DNA from: Pseudobdellovibrio sp.
GTDB taxonomy: Bacteria > Bdellovibrionota > Bdellovibrionia > Bdellovibrionales > Bdellovibrionaceae
DNA length: 64,000 nucleotides
Assembly (NCBI GenBank): GCA_023701385.1
Contig: JAMPXC010000009.1
Span: forward strand, 1 to 64,000
Direction: 5' to 3'
The notes beneath the pieces are model-generated. The model was given only the letters and a program-made list of their open reading frames with translations, was not told the DNA's origin and searched no databases. Shown piece by piece: positions 47 through 42,679 of the stretch. Within the stretch, counting starts at the first letter, position 1. Every line of letters starts with the position of its first letter. The position numbers and the translations under genes are program-made.

Positions 47-601
47 ATGTTAAATATTAAAAAAAGAAACTCTTCATTTGTTCTTCTGGGTGCTTTCTTG
101 ACCAGCCTTTTACTTGCTGCCTGTTCTCACCAATATCCAAAAACAAAAAAGGAGTCAGTGACAAAAACTGAAAAACAGAATTACCTCTTTGTTCAATCTA
201 TTTACGCTGGAAAATTTAACGGCAAAGAACTTTCACTCGATAAAATTTCAGCTCAAACACTCTACTTCTCCGATCGTCCCGCGCGCAAAGTAGGACACAT
301 CCCGACGGCTCACTTTATGAAATTATGGAGCGAAGGAAGTGATAGCTTTAAAGGCGATCCACCAAACGCAACTCTTAGCATTACGACTAAAGATAAAATT
401 GCAAATGCTGTTATTGAACTAATGAACCCAAGATTAAAGGGAACGAAGTTTGTTTACGACGTCAAAGTTATTGAAGGGGTAATTCCTAAGAAATTTGAAT
501 CAGCCAGCTTATTTATTGATGCAGCTTCAGCTGATATCGTAATGACTGGCGGTGGACCTGGACAATCTTCGACGCCCTTTGATTTTGGCCTTGGTAATTA
601 A
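47..601 (+). CDS. Lipoprotein of unknown function, 184 aa
   Basis: Seen: a basic N-region, a hydrophobic stretch and a lipobox L-A-A-C put the lipid-carrying Cys at residue 26, so this should be an envelope lipoprotein processed by LspA. AGGA about nine bases before the ATG supports the start. The mature part (about 158 residues) is polar with no further Cys. It ends in a Gly/Pro-rich tail (residues 167-184) containing GGGPGQSSTPFDFGLGN. I recognise no domain. A two-component operon starts downstream on the same strand with its own promoter, so this gene is probably a separate unit. Function unknown. Confidence 0.8.
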   Translation: MLNIKKRNSSFVLLGAFLTSLLLAACSHQYPKTKKESVTKTEKQNYLFVQSIYAGKFNGKELSLDKISAQTLYFSDRPARKVGHIPTAHFMKLWSEGSDSFKGDPPNATLSITTKDKIANAVIELMNPRLKGTKFVYDVKVIEGVIPKKFESASLFIDAASADIVMTGGGPGQSSTPFDFGLGN

Positions 602-611
602 AATGCTCACC

Positions 612-626
612 GTTTTGCCTCAAAAC
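612..626 (+). terminator. Possible weak terminator hairpin
   Basis: GTTTTG-CCT-CAAAAC forms a six-pair stem with a three-base loop 11 bases after the lipoprotein stop. Only a poor T-tract follows, so termination is uncertain. Confidence 0.3.
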
Positions 627-639
627 AGTTCAAAATAGC

Positions 640-672
640 TTTACACTGACTTTACATTGGGTTGACATAACC
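640..672 (+). promoter_or_regulatory. Three 11-bp direct repeats, likely OmpR-family operator
   Basis: Three consecutive 11-mers start TTTACAC, TTTACAT and TTGACAT, each followed by four variable bases. The 11-bp period matches the tandem binding of OmpR/PhoB winged-helix regulators. The third repeat contains the -35 hexamer of the kinase promoter. A matching triplet lies at 2971-3003, so the regulator encoded at 2292-2963 is the natural candidate to bind both (inference). Confidence 0.6.
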
Positions 673-693
673 TTAGCGCAGTTGCGGTATAGT
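662..693 (+). promoter_or_regulatory. Promoter of the two-component operon
   Basis: TTGACA (662-667) and TATAGT (688-693) are good hexamers but 20 bp apart, longer than the usual 17. Such spacing is typical of activator-dependent promoters, which fits the overlapping 11-bp repeats. Transcription would start near 700, just upstream of the TTG start codon at 712. Confidence 0.5.
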
Positions 694-711
694 TTATCCC
701 ATGGAGAAAGT

Positions 712-2292
712 TTGAAAACTTCGTTTATTAAAAATCACTTCGGATTATTAAGCCTATTTGCAGGCCTGATGTTGATTTATATCTATTGGGCGCAGTCAGC
801 GACTCAACGAGGTTTATTTTTTTCAAACGAAAATCTGAGTTCTGAAATTCACGAGACGATCACCCAGTTTCGTTTAACTTCGAAACCCGTGGCCGAAATT
901 AATTTTTCTGAAATTTATGGTAATAGCGGTCAGTTTCAAATTTTACATCCGCTGTTAAGTATTAAAAGACCCCATTTAGCCAACTGCAAAAACTGCAGCG
1001 AAAAACAAACCGAGAGCGAAGAAACAAAAGAGGCCTTTACTTTTGCTAAAGATAAAAGAAGACAGCTTGAATTCTTTTTATCGGGTTCAGCACCTCTACC
1101 AAATGATTTCTTTTTAAAGCCACCTTTTGCTGACCAGCAAGGGTCAAGCTACGCCTATCTGATTTCAATGTACCCGACTCTTTTAGAAGATGAAAAAGCC
1201 TGGGTCGAACAGCATCTGTCTTATTTTAAAATTTCTGAATTAAAAGAAGTTTTACAAAAATACCAAATCAACGATTTAAAGTTTTTGATTTTATCGCGCT
1301 TTAGCGAACTTGAGGTTGAGTCAGTTATTCGTGGTGAAGAAGTTATTCTAACTTCAGATTATGTTTTATTTAAAGACCAAGACCGCCTGGGGTTTTCTCC
1401 GTTAAGTTATTTGGTTTATTCAGCTACTGAGTTTAACCAAGCTGTAAAAAACGGAAAATTTGAAGTCAGTCCTGAAATAGAAAACAGAACTTGTATACTA
1501 AAAATTGGCAACAGCTGCTGGACTTATAATTCACGCCAGACGCAAGCTTATTTTTACCGTTATTCTTTTACGATTATTCTTTTAATCGGGCTTTTTCTTT
1601 TAAGTGTTCTTGGATTTTACATCAAAAGTCTTTATGAAAAAAATAAAGCACAGCTTAAACATCGTTTGTCGTTACAGGTGTTAAGTCATGAATTTAGAAC
1701 TCCGGTTAGCGCCATGTTATTGCTGATCGAACAAATGACAGCGAAACAGAACAAATTAGATCCTGAAACGCAGGATCTAATCGTTCGTTTGTCAGCTGAA
1801 GTCTTTCGTATGCAAAGAATTATTGAGGTGAGTAAAACCTATCTGCAAACCGAAAGTCATCGCATTCAGTTTAATAATGTCGAAATTCCATCTGTTAACA
1901 GTTGGATCAGTGATTTTATCTTAGATTCAAACAAAGACATTTCATCTGAGTTATTACCTGAAGATCATAGTTTAATTGTGGACCCTTTTTGGCTTAAGTT
2001 TATTTTATCAAACTTAGTGCAAAACGCTTTTATACATGGAAAGTCGCCGGTTGTGATTAAGCTTCAAAAAAACAAAAATCAGCTAAAAATTTTAGTGCAA
2101 GATCAGGGTAAAAACGAATTTGAATCCCTTGAACAAATGACCGAAGCCTTTGTTAAAAGCCCGCGCAGCCAAGGTATGGGGTTGGGCCTTAATATGATCT
2201 TATTCATTGTTGATCAATGGGGAGCTCGTTTGTTGTTTTCTAAAAATCCGACGGTATTTACTTTGATCTTACCTTTACGAGGTAAAAACTAA
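712..2292 (+). CDS. Sensor histidine kinase with Cys-bearing periplasmic domain
   Basis: Inner-membrane sensor kinase, 526 aa from the TTG at 712. I chose this start because GGAGAAAG sits just upstream, while an earlier in-frame TTG (682) falls inside the promoter. An N-terminal membrane segment is followed by a periplasmic domain of roughly 245 residues, then a second membrane segment (FTIILLIGLFLLSVLGF). The cytoplasmic kinase has the H-box LSHEFRTP (His326), N-box NLVQNAFIHG, a DQG segment and a GLGL ATP lid. The periplasmic domain carries C92-K-N-C95 and C261/C269, suggesting thiol or disulfide sensing (inference). Its stop overlaps the regulator start as TAATG, so the pair is translationally coupled. 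Confidence 0.88.
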   Translation: MKTSFIKNHFGLLSLFAGLMLIYIYWAQSATQRGLFFSNENLSSEIHETITQFRLTSKPVAEINFSEIYGNSGQFQILHPLLSIKRPHLANCKNCSEKQTESEETKEAFTFAKDKRRQLEFFLSGSAPLPNDFFLKPPFADQQGSSYAYLISMYPTLLEDEKAWVEQHLSYFKISELKEVLQKYQINDLKFLILSRFSELEVESVIRGEEVILTSDYVLFKDQDRLGFSPLSYLVYSATEFNQAVKNGKFEVSPEIENRTCILKIGNSCWTYNSRQTQAYFYRYSFTIILLIGLFLLSVLGFYIKSLYEKNKAQLKHRLSLQVLSHEFRTPVSAMLLLIEQMTAKQNKLDPETQDLIVRLSAEVFRMQRIIEVSKTYLQTESHRIQFNNVEIPSVNSWISDFILDSNKDISSELLPEDHSLIVDPFWLKFILSNLVQNAFIHGKSPVVIKLQKNKNQLKILVQDQGKNEFESLEQMTEAFVKSPRSQGMGLGLNMILFIVDQWGARLLFSKNPTVFTLILPLRGKN

Positions 2293-2963
2293 TGGCACAT
2301 GTCTTAATTATTGAAGATCACCAGAATATCAGTCTTTCACTCAAAGATCTGATTGCTAAAGAAGGACATCAAGTGGTGATCTGTGAAAATCTAACGCAAG
2401 CTCGGGAACAATTTAAACCCACAGCTTCTATAAAGCCCGATCTTATCATTTTAGATTGGATGTTACCTGACGGCCAAGGCTTAGATTTTTTAATTGAACT
2501 GCGAAAGCAAGGTTTTGCGACACCTGTGATTTTTCTAACCGCTCGCGCCGAAGTAGTCGATAAAGTGCTTGGCTTAGAAATGGGCGCGAATGATTATTTA
2601 ACAAAGCCTTTTGAACCACGTGAACTGATTGCGCGTGTTCGCGTACAACTACGAGTAAAAACGCAAGAACCCAGTGGATTACTTACAGTAGGATCGCTGG
2701 CGATTGATCGTATTCGCCATAAGGTGAGCTTTAAGGGCACAGCCATTGAACTGGTGAAAAAAGAATTTGATCTATTAGTGCTGTTGGCTGAAGACCCTGA
2801 AAAAGTTTTTTCTCGAGATGAGATATTAAACAAAGTCTGGGGTTATGAGGTCTACCCGACAACGCGTACCGTAGATACGCATATTATGCTTTTAAGACAG
2901 AAAATCGATGACCAGCTGATCGAAACAGTACGTTCGGTGGGGTATCGCCTAAAAGTTTTGTAA
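2292..2963 (+). CDS. OmpR-family response regulator
   Basis: Cytoplasmic DNA-binding partner of the upstream kinase, 223 aa. The N-terminal receiver domain (about 1-120) has the acidic pair in IIEDH, the phospho-acceptor Asp in LILDWMLPDGQG, the Thr of FLTARA and the Lys of LTKPF. The C-terminal winged helix (about 128-223) ends with RTVDTHIMLLRQKI and VRSVGYRLKVL, as in OmpR/PhoB proteins. It is coupled to the kinase through TAATG. The 11-bp repeats at 640-672 and 2971-3003 have the spacing expected for its dimers, which would mean autoregulation plus control of the DsbA-like gene (inference). Confidence 0.92.
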   Translation: MAHVLIIEDHQNISLSLKDLIAKEGHQVVICENLTQAREQFKPTASIKPDLIILDWMLPDGQGLDFLIELRKQGFATPVIFLTARAEVVDKVLGLEMGANDYLTKPFEPRELIARVRVQLRVKTQEPSGLLTVGSLAIDRIRHKVSFKGTAIELVKKEFDLLVLLAEDPEKVFSRDEILNKVWGYEVYPTTRTVDTHIMLLRQKIDDQLIETVRSVGYRLKVL

Positions 2964-2970
2964 AGTTTAA

Positions 2971-3023
2971 TTTACAAAACTTTCACACAAGCGTGACACG
3001 CTAAAAACTCAAATTGCTATCCT
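2971..3023 (+). promoter_or_regulatory. Operator repeats and promoter of DsbA-like gene
   Basis: Three 11-mers beginning TTTACAA, TTCACAC and GTGACAC (2971-3003) repeat the layout at 640-672. The last contains a -35-like GTGACA (2993-2998), and TATCCT (3018-3023) is a possible -10 with a 19-bp gap. The first repeat begins only eight bases after the regulator stop. Confidence 0.5.
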
Positions 3024-3051
3024 GGAATCCAACATCTTAATGGAGGATTCA

Positions 3052-3837
3052 ATGAATCAACTCATTCGTATTTCACAATTTGCAGTTATCGCGCTTTTAT
3101 TGGCGTCTTGTGCGCCGACGTCACAACAAATCAAAGAGGCTGTTGAAAAAGACCCTTCAATTGTTTTTTCGGCGATTGAAAAAGCTCCTGATCAATTTAT
3201 TGAAGTTGTTATGAAAGCCCAGCAAAACGCACAAAAGGTTGCGGCTGAGCGTGCCCAACAAGAAGAGCAAAAACAACGTGAAGAAGAATTTAAAAATCCA
3301 TTAAAACCCGAAATCGAAACTTCGCGTGTGATCTTTGGTAATAAATCAGCCCCGATCACTATTGTTGAGTACTCAGATTTTCAATGCCCTTACTGTTCAC
3401 GTGGTTACCAAACGATGAAAGAACTTAAAAAAGCTTACGGTGATAAGGTTAGATTTGTTTTTAAACACTTACCTTTAGACTTTCACCCACTAGCTGTGCC
3501 AGCCGCTCGTTATTTTGAAGCCATTGCGATGCAAGACCATGCGAAAGCTGAAAAATTTCATGACTTAGTTTTTGAAAATCAGTCACAAATGCAAGGTAAA
3601 GGCGAAGCTCTTTTTAAAGAATTAGCTAAAAAATCTGGTGCTGATATGAAAAAAGTAGAAGCATCGCTTAAGAGCGAAAAAATCACAGAGCGTATTAATG
3701 CTGACTCTGAAGAAGCTAGAAAGTTTAATATGTCGGGTACGCCAGGCTATTTAATTAACGGGATCTCATTAAGAGGCGCGTACCCACTGGCGGCATTTAA
3801 AGAAATTATTGATCGCCAGCTTTCAGCTAAAAACTAA
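3052..3837 (+). CDS. DsbA-like thioredoxin-fold lipoprotein
   Basis: Predicted thiol-disulfide oxidoreductase or isomerase anchored in the envelope. The ATG at 3052 is chosen because GGAGG sits just upstream; an earlier ATG (3040) would overlap this site. A lipobox LLASC gives the lipidated Cys20. A charged, Glu/Gln/Arg-rich helical linker (about 40-85) precedes a DsbA/DSBA-like domain with C112-P-Y-C115 and the cis-Pro loop GTPGYLING. The family forms or reshuffles disulfides in exported proteins. Its promoter shares operator repeats with the preceding two-component operon, linking it to the Cys-bearing sensor (inference). Confidence 0.88.
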   Translation: MNQLIRISQFAVIALLLASCAPTSQQIKEAVEKDPSIVFSAIEKAPDQFIEVVMKAQQNAQKVAAERAQQEEQKQREEEFKNPLKPEIETSRVIFGNKSAPITIVEYSDFQCPYCSRGYQTMKELKKAYGDKVRFVFKHLPLDFHPLAVPAARYFEAIAMQDHAKAEKFHDLVFENQSQMQGKGEALFKELAKKSGADMKKVEASLKSEKITERINADSEEARKFNMSGTPGYLINGISLRGAYPLAAFKEIIDRQLSAKN

Positions 3838-3847
3838 TTTTTTCCAA

Positions 3848-3884
3848 GACTGTTCGCCATTTTATCCCCCTCTGGCGAGCAGTC
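3848..3884 (+). terminator. Strong hairpin terminator after DsbA-like gene
   Basis: GACTGTTCGCCA (3848-3859) pairs with TGGCGAGCAGTC (3873-3884), twelve pairs with one G-U, loop of 13. GTTCTTT follows on the plus strand. It separates this gene from the convergent small gene at 3904-4077. Confidence 0.6.
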
Positions 3885-3903
3885 GTTCTTTGGTTAGCGA
3901 GGA

Positions 3904-4077
3904 TTAATTCCCTTTACGTGGCCCCCAGGCTGGGCCGACATTTGAATTGTTCGTATTACGTGGCTTTTTGTAACTGAAGCGGCCAAAACCTTCTGTCGTA
4001 TTTGCTTGGTTAGCTTCGATTTTACGTTTTGTTAACTCTAATAAAAGATTTGTTTTTTTAGTTTCTGTCTTTTTCAT
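3904..4077 (-). CDS. Small basic protein, 57 aa, downstream of DEAD-box helicase
   Basis: A short gene on the minus strand. It starts nine bases after the helicase stop with AGGAA upstream of its ATG, so it should be the last gene of the hflX-helicase transcript. The protein begins MKKTETKKTNLLLELTKRK, is rich in Lys, Arg, Asn and Thr, and has no Cys, signal peptide or membrane segment. The C-terminal half reads GFGRFSYKKPRNTNN and ends GPAWGPRKGN, aromatic-Gly-basic in the manner of RNA- or ribosome-binding tails. I do not recognise the family. Coupling to an RNA helicase suggests an RNA-related role (inference). Confidence 0.6.
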   Translation of the reverse strand: MKKTETKKTNLLLELTKRKIEANQANTTEGFGRFSYKKPRNTNNSNVGPAWGPRKGN

Positions 4078-4086
4078 AATCGTTTC

Positions 4087-5331
4087 CTATTTTTTCTTAT
4101 TTTTAAAACCTTTTTTAGGCTTACCCATAACTGATTCTTCATGAGCGATTAACTCGGCAAAGTTCATATCTTCGCTAGGTGGAGTTAAAACCATTTCGTA
4201 AGCTTTTTTACTGACTTTAAGAACGTCAATCTTCTTGCCAATAAGCTCTTCAATATCTAGTAACAATTCTTTTTCTTCAGGAGCGCAGAATGAAATCGCC
4301 AGGCCCTTATTAAAGCCACGACCTGTACGACCGATACGATGAACGTAGTTTTCTGCTTTTTCTGGAATATCGTAGTTAATCACATGAGTGACATCGGGAA
4401 TATCAATTCCACGCGCTGTGATGTCGGTTGCGATTAACACTTTACATTCGCCGTTTCTAAAGGTCTGCATCACTTGCAGACGGTCAGTTTGATCTTTTTC
4501 GCCGTGTAAGGTCAGTGTTTGAACTTCCATGCGCTCCATAGCTTTAGCTACGCGCTCGGCACGGATACGAGTTCTTACGAACACCACAAACTTACCTTCA
4601 GAATTTTGTTTTATGTAATCAGCCAAGAAGAAACGTTTATCATCCATCGGAATATTGATCACAGCGTGGGAAATATTTTTTGAAACTGGATCTTCTGGAG
4701 AAATCTGAATACGAATCGCATTGTGGCGAACTTGGTTGTACGCTAAACGTTTAATTTTTGTATTGATCGTGGCTGAGAAAAATAACGTTTGATGACCACG
4801 AATTAATTTACGTTTGATCGATTCGATGTCTTCGATAAAACCAAGATCTAACATTTGATCGGCTTCATCTAACACTAGAATTTCAATACCACTTAAATCA
4901 ATGTGGCCCTGGCTAATTAAATCAAACATACGGCCTGGAGTTGCGATTAATACATCAAGACCATCTTGAAGCTTCTTGATTTGGCGATCTTGCTCAACTC
5001 CACCATAAAGAGCGAATGACTTACAACGCATATGACGGCTTAAGTTATTAAACACTTCACCAATCTGTTGTGCTAATTCACGTGTCGGAACCATCACTAA
5101 ACAGCGAATACCGCCAGAACGTTTACTTGATTTACTGCTATGAATGATATCGATAATGGGAATTGCAAAAGCTGCAGTTTTTCCGGTACCTGTTTGAGCA
5201 ATCGCTAATACGTCTTCACCGCGTAAAACCGCAGGAATAGTTTTGTACTGGATATCTGTCGTACGAAAGTACTTCATATCCAATAGATTGCGTAATAGGT
5301 CTTCACTGAGCTGTAACTTATCGAATTTCAT
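4087..5331 (-). CDS. DEAD-box ATP-dependent RNA helicase (RhlE-like)
   Basis: Cytoplasmic RNA-unwinding ATPase, 414 aa. Motifs run in order: Q-motif region with Gln28, motif I AQTGTGKT (45-52), PTRELA, GG, TPGR, DEAD, SAT, then the second RecA domain with TDITARGIDIPDV and HRIGRTGR. The C-terminus is a short basic tail (KPKKGFKNKKK) that could bind RNA. Length and motifs fit the RhlE/SrmB group, involved in ribosome assembly or RNA decay in known bacteria. The gene follows hflX by 16 bases on the same strand and precedes the 57-aa basic gene by nine, so the three probably form one transcript. Confidence 0.92.
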   Translation of the reverse strand: MKFDKLQLSEDLLRNLLDMKYFRTTDIQYKTIPAVLRGEDVLAIAQTGTGKTAAFAIPIIDIIHSSKSSKRSGGIRCLVMVPTRELAQQIGEVFNNLSRHMRCKSFALYGGVEQDRQIKKLQDGLDVLIATPGRMFDLISQGHIDLSGIEILVLDEADQMLDLGFIEDIESIKRKLIRGHQTLFFSATINTKIKRLAYNQVRHNAIRIQISPEDPVSKNISHAVINIPMDDKRFFLADYIKQNSEGKFVVFVRTRIRAERVAKAMERMEVQTLTLHGEKDQTDRLQVMQTFRNGECKVLIATDITARGIDIPDVTHVINYDIPEKAENYVHRIGRTGRGFNKGLAISFCAPEEKELLLDIEELIGKKIDVLKVSKKAYEMVLTPPSEDMNFAELIAHEESVMGKPKKGFKNKKK

Positions 5332-41528: not shown

Positions 41529-41650
41529 CCCGATCTAATTGAAAACGAACTGACACATTACTCTCAAAATCTTCACAAAACAGCCCTTCAAAAGTCCAGA
41601 AAAACCCTTCTCTGGTCAAGTCGGTATCCCTTAAGTCCGATCCAGTCTAT

Positions 41651-42679
41651 ATGAACTACCGTCTAGCCACTGGCTTAAAGTTGACCCTAATTATGCTTAC
41701 GCAATTAGCAACACTGAGTGCTGCAGCGGATGTTTTTCGCTGGCCCAAACTGTGTGTTAACCAAACTCTAACGGTAGAAAATAAATCAAATAAAGATCAA
41801 ACTGTGTGGCTTCAAGAGTGGGAAAAATACCTCGTTGATGAAATTGATCACACTGTTCCTGCTAAAGGCAAAATCTACCTGCAACTTTCACACGACCCCT
41901 CGATTGCAACACAAGACTATTCATTGTTAGCTTTAGATAATCCAAAAGATTTGAGTGTTGATACAAACTGTAACTTACGCGACATCGTTTCAGCCGATAC
42001 TTTAGAAGGCGGCGTTGTTTATTATAAAATTAATCCACGTGCCACGAATGAAGTTCAGCTTAAAAATTTATTTCCCGGACGCAATACTTTCTACCTCGAA
42101 GATTTAAGCTTAGTTAAAAAATCTGAACCTATTGAAATTGATGTTGAAGGCAGAGCGCTATTTACTTTCACATTAAAACCAGAGCCTACTTCAACATGGG
42201 TAAAAATCACAGCCAAAGAAAGATTTCGTACAGCGATTCACACTTCATCTGAAGTTTTAAAACCAAGCTTCATTGAACCACAGCGTTCGATTGCCTCAAG
42301 TGACGAAAAGTATTTCGTGGTTGGTCCAAGCGATAATCATGGCGACCAGTTCGTGGTGAAAATCAAAGATCCGGTGATGGTGCAAAAAGCGCGCGATCAA
42401 ATCGCCAATCCTAAATTACAAAAAATCGTTTTCGCGAAGATTCAATTAGGAAACCAAGGTTACAACCGCAATATGACTAAAAAAGACAAAAGCTTTTGGT
42501 CTTGGTCTGTGACTGAGGTAACAAACATTTCTGATTTCGGTTCAACGGCGTGTAACGGTTTTCCGCAAATGTTAGAAGACCAAGCTGAACAGTGGGTCAA
42601 AGGCTTAGGTAAAATTTGTTTTTGGTCTTACCGAATCAAAAAAGAACTTACATTAGACGAAGTTCAAAATCCGAAATAA
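41651..42679 (+). CDS. Secreted protein with BP74-like C-terminal domain
   Basis: 342 aa with signal peptide (MNYRLATGLKLTLIMLTQLA, cleaved after SAA). Residues 27-205 are beta-rich without known family (YKINPRATNEVQLKNLFPGR). Residues about 225-335 look like the BP74 domain known from Dictyostelium lectin-associated proteins and some bacteria: QFVVKIKDPVMVQKARDQIA, FAKIQLGNQGYNRNM, FWSWSVTEVTNISDFGSTAC, and KICFWSYRIKKEL. BP74-type domains are thought to bind calcium or protease partners in secreted proteins. The assignment is by pattern only. No Shine-Dalgarno. Ends one base before the convergent queD-like stop. Confidence 0.7.
   Translation: MNYRLATGLKLTLIMLTQLATLSAAADVFRWPKLCVNQTLTVENKSNKDQTVWLQEWEKYLVDEIDHTVPAKGKIYLQLSHDPSIATQDYSLLALDNPKDLSVDTNCNLRDIVSADTLEGGVVYYKINPRATNEVQLKNLFPGRNTFYLEDLSLVKKSEPIEIDVEGRALFTFTLKPEPTSTWVKITAKERFRTAIHTSSEVLKPSFIEPQRSIASSDEKYFVVGPSDNHGDQFVVKIKDPVMVQKARDQIANPKLQKIVFAKIQLGNQGYNRNMTKKDKSFWSWSVTEVTNISDFGSTACNGFPQMLEDQAEQWVKGLGKICFWSYRIKKELTLDEVQNPK

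Follow-up and report, generated by a model that had tools for sequence, protein, structure and literature searches.

A VxrAB-type two-component system of Pseudobdellovibrio sp. with predicted 11-bp triple-repeat operators before its own operon and a DsbA-like lipoprotein gene

Near the start of a 64,000-nucleotide stretch of a Pseudobdellovibrio sp. contig (here called the window), an operon encoding a sensor kinase and a response regulator is followed, after an 88-bp gap, by a gene for a DsbA-like lipoprotein, and both promoters carry what look like the same repeats (Table 1). The arrangement raises the question of whether the regulator controls both its own operon and the disulfide enzyme, and to what signal the kinase responds. 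A preliminary description of the sequence had proposed a redox-sensing, Cpx-like loop.

Table 1. Features of the locus, in window positions.
Feature	Position	Strand	Remarks
Operator 1, three 11-mers TTTACACTGAC TTTACATTGGG TTGACATAACC	640..672	+	Before the kinase operon; third unit at the −35 position
−10 element TATAGT, kinase operon promoter	688..693	+	26 nt from the third-repeat start
Sensor histidine kinase, 526 aa	712..2292	+	DUF3404-type periplasmic sensor, HisKA, HATPase_c
OmpR/PhoB-family response regulator, 223 aa	2292..2963	+	ATG overlaps the kinase stop (TAATG)
Operator 2, three 11-mers TTTACAAAACT TTCACACAAGC GTGACACGCTA	2971..3003	+	Before the dsbA-like gene
Extended −10 TG-C-TATCCT, dsbA-like promoter	3015..3023	+	Hexamer 3018-3023, 25 nt from the third-repeat start
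DsbA-like thioredoxin-fold lipoprotein, CPYC active site, lipobox LASC	3052..3837	+	SD GGAGG 3042-3046

Both operators are 33 bp long and, read directly from the sequence, consist of three 11-mers in exact 11-bp register, the shared layout that the preliminary description had claimed. Its statement that every unit reads TTnACA plus five bases fits five of the six units; the sixth starts with GTGACA. The genome scan that it had proposed as a check was run over all 3,184,588 bp, and the pattern TnACA-N6-TnACA-N6-TGACA gave exactly two matches without mismatch, at the 640 and 2971 sites. Allowing one mismatch added a single further match genome-wide (the reversed control pattern gives two), and with up to three mismatches there was no clear excess across the genome (95 + 69 versus 64 + 78 in the reversed control). 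A position weight matrix (PWM) built from 39 sites of other genomes, with the window sites left out, gave 640 (20.5 bits) and 2971 (17.0 bits) the two highest ranks in the 64-kb window, followed by a site at 12.3; its training sites were linked sites selected at P < 0.05, so scores of linked sites are in-sample and those of unlinked and window sites are not. A covariance-model scan of the same genome, with 150 of 1347 candidates scored, placed the 640 site best (E = 0.2) among five weak matches in all, and the 2971 site was absent from its list. Neither the pattern scan nor the covariance-model scan of this genome found the operator at any cell-wall gene. Since loose patterns behave much like the control, no wide regulon is visible here; a larger regulon was rejected on this ground and on the covariance-model result, five weak matches with the second operator missed. 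The clear predicted targets in this genome are only the operon itself and the dsbA-like gene.

The −10 elements in Table 1 bear out the earlier claim that the third repeat overlaps the −35 region, and their spacing is the same in other genomes. Among 41 significant sites, which include both window operators and leave out the beta/gamma-proteobacterial rows, a TAnnnT hexamer starts 25 nt from the third-repeat start at 16 sites and 26 nt from it at 9 (25 of the 41); elsewhere between 18 and 35 no offset occurs at more than 3 sites, and none of 2000 shuffles reached 16. The −10 is TG-extended at 12 of the 16 offset-25 sites. This fixed offset puts the third half-site at the −35 position, 19 to 20 bp from the −10, as in activators of the pho-box type. 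A generic sigma-70 scan of positions 560 to 4100 listed neither promoter (6 matches versus 7.6 expected in shuffles); it allows spacings of 16 to 18, and those of the window promoters are longer.

A protein search (E ≤ 1e-20) detected the kinase in 8 of 118 genomes, its own included; the 13 other genomes of the genus gave no match. A contig scan yielded 80 kinase loci, 8 of them duplicates of loci already in the set. The dsbA-like gene lies directly behind the regulator gene at 22 of the 80, window included, and at 26 the rule applied identified no following gene; dsbA-like genes were counted at 25 distinct loci, again with the window. Promoters were scored against the 15-base consensus of the preliminary description with 200 dinucleotide shuffles each. 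That description had named absence of the repeats from orthologous loci of relatives as evidence against its model; they were found at P < 0.05 in 17 of 25 linked dsbA promoters and 24 of 78 kinase promoters, although these rows are phylogenetically related and the shuffle P values overstate their independence. The window operators match 15 of 15 (operator 1) and 14 of 15 consensus bases (operator 2; P = 0.005 each). Scores of at least 13 were reached at period 11 by 8 dsbA and 12 kinase promoters; at periods 9, 10, 12, and 13, the dsbA count was 0 throughout and the kinase counts were 0, 0, 0, and 1. All four members of the clade to which the window belongs have a clear kinase operator (15, 13, 15, and 13 of 15), and the dsbA operators of the three besides the window are weak (L022, P = 0.07; L023, P = 0.66; L020/G096, score 10). 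With the simple consensus, 54 of the 78 kinase promoters miss P < 0.05; kinase promoters of Aeromonas, Chromobacterium, and other beta/gamma-proteobacteria, which stay within the count of 24 in 78, have no clear site in 300 bp, and another gene may come ahead of the kinase in these.

The operator also occurs before dsbA genes located elsewhere. In genomes that have the kinase, 25 unlinked dsbA promoters were scored with the held-out PWM; 12 passed P < 0.05 and 13 lacked the operator, related rows not being independent. In a comparison set, 1 of 50 passed (Fisher P = 2e-6); this set comprises housekeeping copies of kinase-less relatives, the organism's own copy on contig C20, and second copies, and one family is overrepresented in it. 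With the simple consensus, the operator was recovered at 6 of 23 unlinked promoters; the set of 25 differs from that of 23 by the addition of three promoters of family f4 and the housekeeping copy of G029, the transfer of L230 to the DUF2861 group, and the removal of L233, whose contig begins inside the gene. No unlinked dsbA promoter passed P < 0.05 with the PWM in genomes with the DUF2861-linked kinase type (0 of 2), nor did any promoter of a longer paralogue (0 of 7). Within f4, the operator was present in all three kinase-bearing genomes of genus g39 versus none of five dsbA promoters of four kinase-less genomes; one of the kinase-less genomes, G079, reached P = 0.012 with the simple consensus, at another place. 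The dsbA-like gene of the window is a second copy in its own genome: the housekeeping dsbA on C20 is 72% identical to it, has a neighbour gene kept in relatives, and has no operator before it. Because the operator recurs at linked loci of other Bdellovibrionota with a fixed −10 and also stands before unlinked dsbA genes, dsbA is very likely a true target of the regulator. The suggestion that OmpR-type tandem 11-bp operators are common to the kinase-regulator operon and the dsbA-like gene is thus upheld both at orthologous loci and in trans.

The identity of the kinase was examined at the level of profile, fold, and family model. Pfam DUF3404 matches it at 1.2e-6, above its cut-off. A search of the PDB with the single sensor sequence found nothing, while an alignment profile of 59 sequences succeeded, and every match below E = 0.5 was a VbrK or VxrA-type sensor chain (best, 1.3e-29). 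An AlphaFold2 model of the sensor (pLDDT 89, pTM 0.84) retrieved VbrK/VxrA at all of ranks 1 to 14 in Foldseek, with VIA Z scores of 10 to 13 for these chains and 3.3 for the next. The NCBIfam VxrA model NF041841 scored 156.2 bits (E = 9e-46), far below its equivalog cut-off of 750, which makes the kinase a relative of VxrA and not an equivalog. The best solved match of the regulator is VbrR (7e1b, 4e-69); the recognition-helix core PTTRTVDTH is identical in the two proteins, and P[ST]TRTVD[TNA]H is kept in 76 of 78 regulators. This motif takes in VbrR residues whose mutants bind DNA less well, T191, H195, and R200 being those reported (PMC10157535). Judged by these profiles and the predicted fold, the system belongs with the VxrAB-type envelope-stress systems, among which it forms a new and separate branch in Bdellovibrionota.

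The operators fit this kinship. In the account of the vadR promoter, the putative VxrB motif is given as TTGACAAAA-N2-TTGAC, with three elements in that promoter, deletion of each of which lowers activity (PMC7695739). The window operators, triple TTGACA-N5, match this motif in the same 11-bp register (PMC7695739). The half-sites reported for VbrR in exsC (TTCTAAT and TTCATCG) resemble the window box poorly (PMC10157535). The DUF3404-type sensor fold is common to VxrAB/WigKR of Vibrio cholerae, VbrKR of Vibrio parahaemolyticus, and the window system, and VxrAB and VbrKR have a PhoB-type regulator with the same recognition-helix core. VxrAB is described as autoregulated and as answering cell-wall damage and mechanical load (PMC10460444); the window system would be alike in its autoregulation. 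It differs from VxrAB in having, instead of vxrC (DUF2861), a DsbA-like lipoprotein with its own operator, and in having only two clear predicted targets in its genome. V. cholerae RvvABC, as described, likewise combines a DUF3404 kinase, an OmpR-type regulator, and a third gene for an envelope protein, but RvvC is a DUF2861 protein, whereas the third gene of the window is DsbA-like (PMC10237652). Among the literature titles screened, none concerned a kinase-dsbA pair in Bdellovibrionota.

The sensor of the kinase carries C92, C95, C261, and C269. This numbering, as originally given, follows from the TTG start at 712, with GGAGAAAG upstream at 703-710. Four sensor columns hold cysteine in 78, 74, 73, and 72 of 78 kinases; L061, L092, and L101, truncated or far, were left out of this count and of the kinase tree. 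The window kinase has C95, C261, and C269 in the first, third, and fourth of these and S124, where other kinases have cysteine, in the second; the second sensor cysteine is thus replaced, unlike in VxrAB and VbrKR, and C92, which forms a CxxC with C95, is an extra residue peculiar to this protein. The relative L023 has only one N-terminal cysteine, and the C92/C95 region is poorly modelled (pLDDT 58-69). In the profile alignment, the first, invariant column (C95) aligns with chain position 86 of VbrK 7cjr; since the ranges in the structural comparison put the author numbering in 7cjr and 7cus near chain position, this column most likely corresponds to VbrK C86, S-nitrosylation of which is reported to activate VbrK (PMC7666205). 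Cysteines in all four columns occur also in VbrK/VxrA-type chains and in Aeromonas and Chromobacterium kinases, at which no linked dsbA was found. The cysteine set is a lead for thiol sensing and also fits structural disulfides, since the Vibrio and Aeromonas kinases share it. Direct beta-lactam binding by VbrK is presented as disputed (PMC8534201), and the signal of the DUF3404 kinases VxrA, RvvA, and VbrK is treated as an open question (PMC10237652, PMC8534201).

The lipoprotein has a DSBA/Thioredoxin_4 domain, with CPYC and GTPG (cis-proline loop) in its sequence; C112, C115, T230, and P231 are invariant in four homologues. It scores 103 bits with NCBIfam NF041057 (Rcas_1661 family), below the cut-off of 190. 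ScsC/Com1-type DsbA proteins, which we take to be its near kin, are alike in their Thioredoxin_4/DSBA domain, CPYC, and lipobox. No vxrC (DUF2861) gene occurs at the window locus, where the DsbA-like gene fills that slot; Pfam assigns the third gene to the DUF2861 (VxrC) family at L053, L084, and L096, and BLAST clusters L054, L070, L077, and L080-L082 with L053 and L097 with L096. The kinase tree, which is a FastTree tree only and in which long branches meet, contains a 53-row clade (support 98) with 26 dsbA-linked rows and no DUF2861-linked rows. In the DsbA tree, the bootstrap of which had not settled, the linked label changes at least three times on well-supported branches, so that either enzyme and operator came to be joined repeatedly or one enzyme took the place of another. 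In this tree the window copy falls within the housekeeping copies of the genus. Loci of 19 other genomes were inspected for conserved neighbours around HflX that would reveal an empty insertion site, and none had them.

We consider it very probable that the regulatory wiring is that of an autoregulated DUF3404-kinase (VxrA/VbrK/RvvA) envelope-stress system controlling its own operon and the DsbA-like lipoprotein. To judge from its domains, the periplasmic sensor would govern autophosphorylation and phosphotransfer, and the phosphorylated PhoB-type regulator would bind the three 11-bp half-sites head-to-tail. With the third half-site in the −35 place, RNA polymerase would be recruited to a weak, often TG-extended −10, giving activation rather than repression. 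The predicted direct targets are the operon, through positive autoregulation, and the downstream lipoprotein gene, probably a recently recruited second copy of the housekeeping dsbA, whose own promoter has no operator. Its product, presumably an active enzyme, would raise the thiol-oxidising capacity of the envelope under stress.

Two other origins of the pattern are very improbable. TTGACA is also the sigma-70 −35 consensus, and many kinase promoters fail the consensus test, so the repeats might be chance −35-like sequence in AT-rich promoters; we rejected this on the period-11 specificity, the uniqueness of the sites in the genome, their recovery by the held-out PWM, the fixed −10 offset, and the in-trans contrast. 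The Cpx-like label of the preliminary description fares no better. In E. coli, CpxAR is an envelope two-component system and dsbA is a CpxR target, so that a dsbA gene is likewise under two-component control, and the locus might be the CpxAR of this lineage. The sensor and regulator models are nevertheless unrelated: the CpxA model scores 33 of 486 bits and the CpxR model 149 of 341, far below their cut-offs, the sensor fold is of the VbrK/VxrA type, and the operator is the putative VxrB motif. Membership in Cpx was rejected accordingly.

Within the VxrAB-type reading, the stimulus and the role of the enzyme can be construed in several ways. Chances are about even that the kinase senses cell-wall or mechanical stress as Vibrio VxrAB does, with DsbA as an ordinary envelope-repair effector and cysteines that only hold the fold. 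The kinship of fold and regulator to VxrAB and the reported response of VxrAB to cell-wall damage and mechanical load (PMC10460444) speak for it, but no cell-wall gene bears the operator in this genome, in which the operon and dsbA are the only clear targets. A closed redox loop, compatible with such a stimulus, is a tentative possibility: reduced or mis-oxidised sensor cysteines would switch the kinase on, and the lipoprotein would re-oxidise the sensor and the envelope until the signal stops. The conservation of the four cysteine columns, the alignment of the invariant one with VbrK C86, described as an S-nitrosylation switch (PMC7666205), and the recurrence of dsbA as a target are consistent with it. 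Against the loop, VbrK/VxrA and the Aeromonas and Chromobacterium kinases have these cysteines without a linked dsbA, and they may be plain structural disulfides; S124 in place of the second family cysteine, the extra C92, the lone N-terminal cysteine of L023, and the low confidence of the C92/C95 model also count against it. It seems unlikely, finally, that the lipoprotein stands in for VxrC, binding the sensor and tuning it as a partner rather than acting mainly as an effector. It occupies the gene slot of the DUF2861 proteins of other members, VxrC appears to inhibit VxrA in the published account (PMC10237652), and the active site of the linked homologues L037 and L040 is CPLS; the window protein has retained CPYC, however, and the operator before dsbA genes located elsewhere fits an effector as well.

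Joining these strands is speculative, and we do so with considerable doubt: a Bdellovibrionota DUF3404 kinase may have been rewired into a thiol-homeostasis loop, in which a DsbA-like target in the VxrC slot would oxidise conserved sensor cysteines (C95 being the VbrK S-nitrosylation position), with the enzyme exchanged or recruited at least three times and the operator kept or regained, also in trans. The locus offers a case of dsbA repeatedly brought under one kind of regulator, and, in a phylum noted for its predators, a defined operator whose candidate regulon is very small. Because the one recurrent target of this branch is a disulfide enzyme and its cysteines are family-wide, a thiol-state signal of DUF3404 kinases would be directly testable in it.

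Besides the two exact triple-repeat operators, the organism's own genome carries a single copy with one mismatch, at positions 75889 to 75916 of contig C71 (5889 to 5916 of the extracted locus L165), between an alpha/beta-hydrolase gene and an open reading frame (ORF) without a Pfam match. A -10-like TATAAA lies ~31 nt past its third repeat, versus the 25 to 26 nt typical of other sites. A further repeat-like place, found by scanning the window with a profile (PWM) built from operator sites of other genomes, is located ~70 bp upstream of an ORF (41651 to 42679) that has a BP74_N domain. The lipoprotein-like gene preceding the kinase operon had no Pfam or NCBIfam match, and no homologue of it was found at the other kinase loci.

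Features identified at operator-like places, kinase loci, and the housekeeping dsbA locus
Feature	Location	Basis
Repeat-like place, rank 3 in window (12.3 bits)	window 41539-41582	PWM scan
Lipoprotein-like gene preceding kinase operon	window 47-601	
Housekeeping second copy, DsbA-like lipoprotein	own genome, C20 52428-53192 (= L164 4410-5201)	
PNP_UDP_1 (phosphorylase superfamily) protein gene behind regulator, genus g39	L047 2359-2979	
Same, genus g39	L055 6375-7010	
Linked DsbA-like protein, CPLS active site	L037 6292-6906	active-site sequence
Linked DsbA-like protein, CPLS active site	L040 6295-6906	active-site sequence

The housekeeping DsbA-like lipoprotein of the same genome is 72% identical to the window copy, which is enclosed in the tree by housekeeping copies of the same genus. 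The operator is absent from the promoter of this second copy. Several housekeeping dsbA promoters (among loci L135 to L163) share a TATGACAGACTA/TGTCACACTA-like element ~40 to 80 bp upstream of the dsbA start, a conserved signal distinct from the triple-repeat operator.

At kinase loci of genus g39, a candidate triple repeat also precedes the PNP_UDP_1 genes (scores of 12 and 13 in L047 and L055). In two linked DsbA-like proteins (L037 and L040), CPLS leaves the second catalytic cysteine missing, a loss that hints at a noncatalytic role there, which may resemble that of VxrC, the third-gene protein of Vibrio systems.
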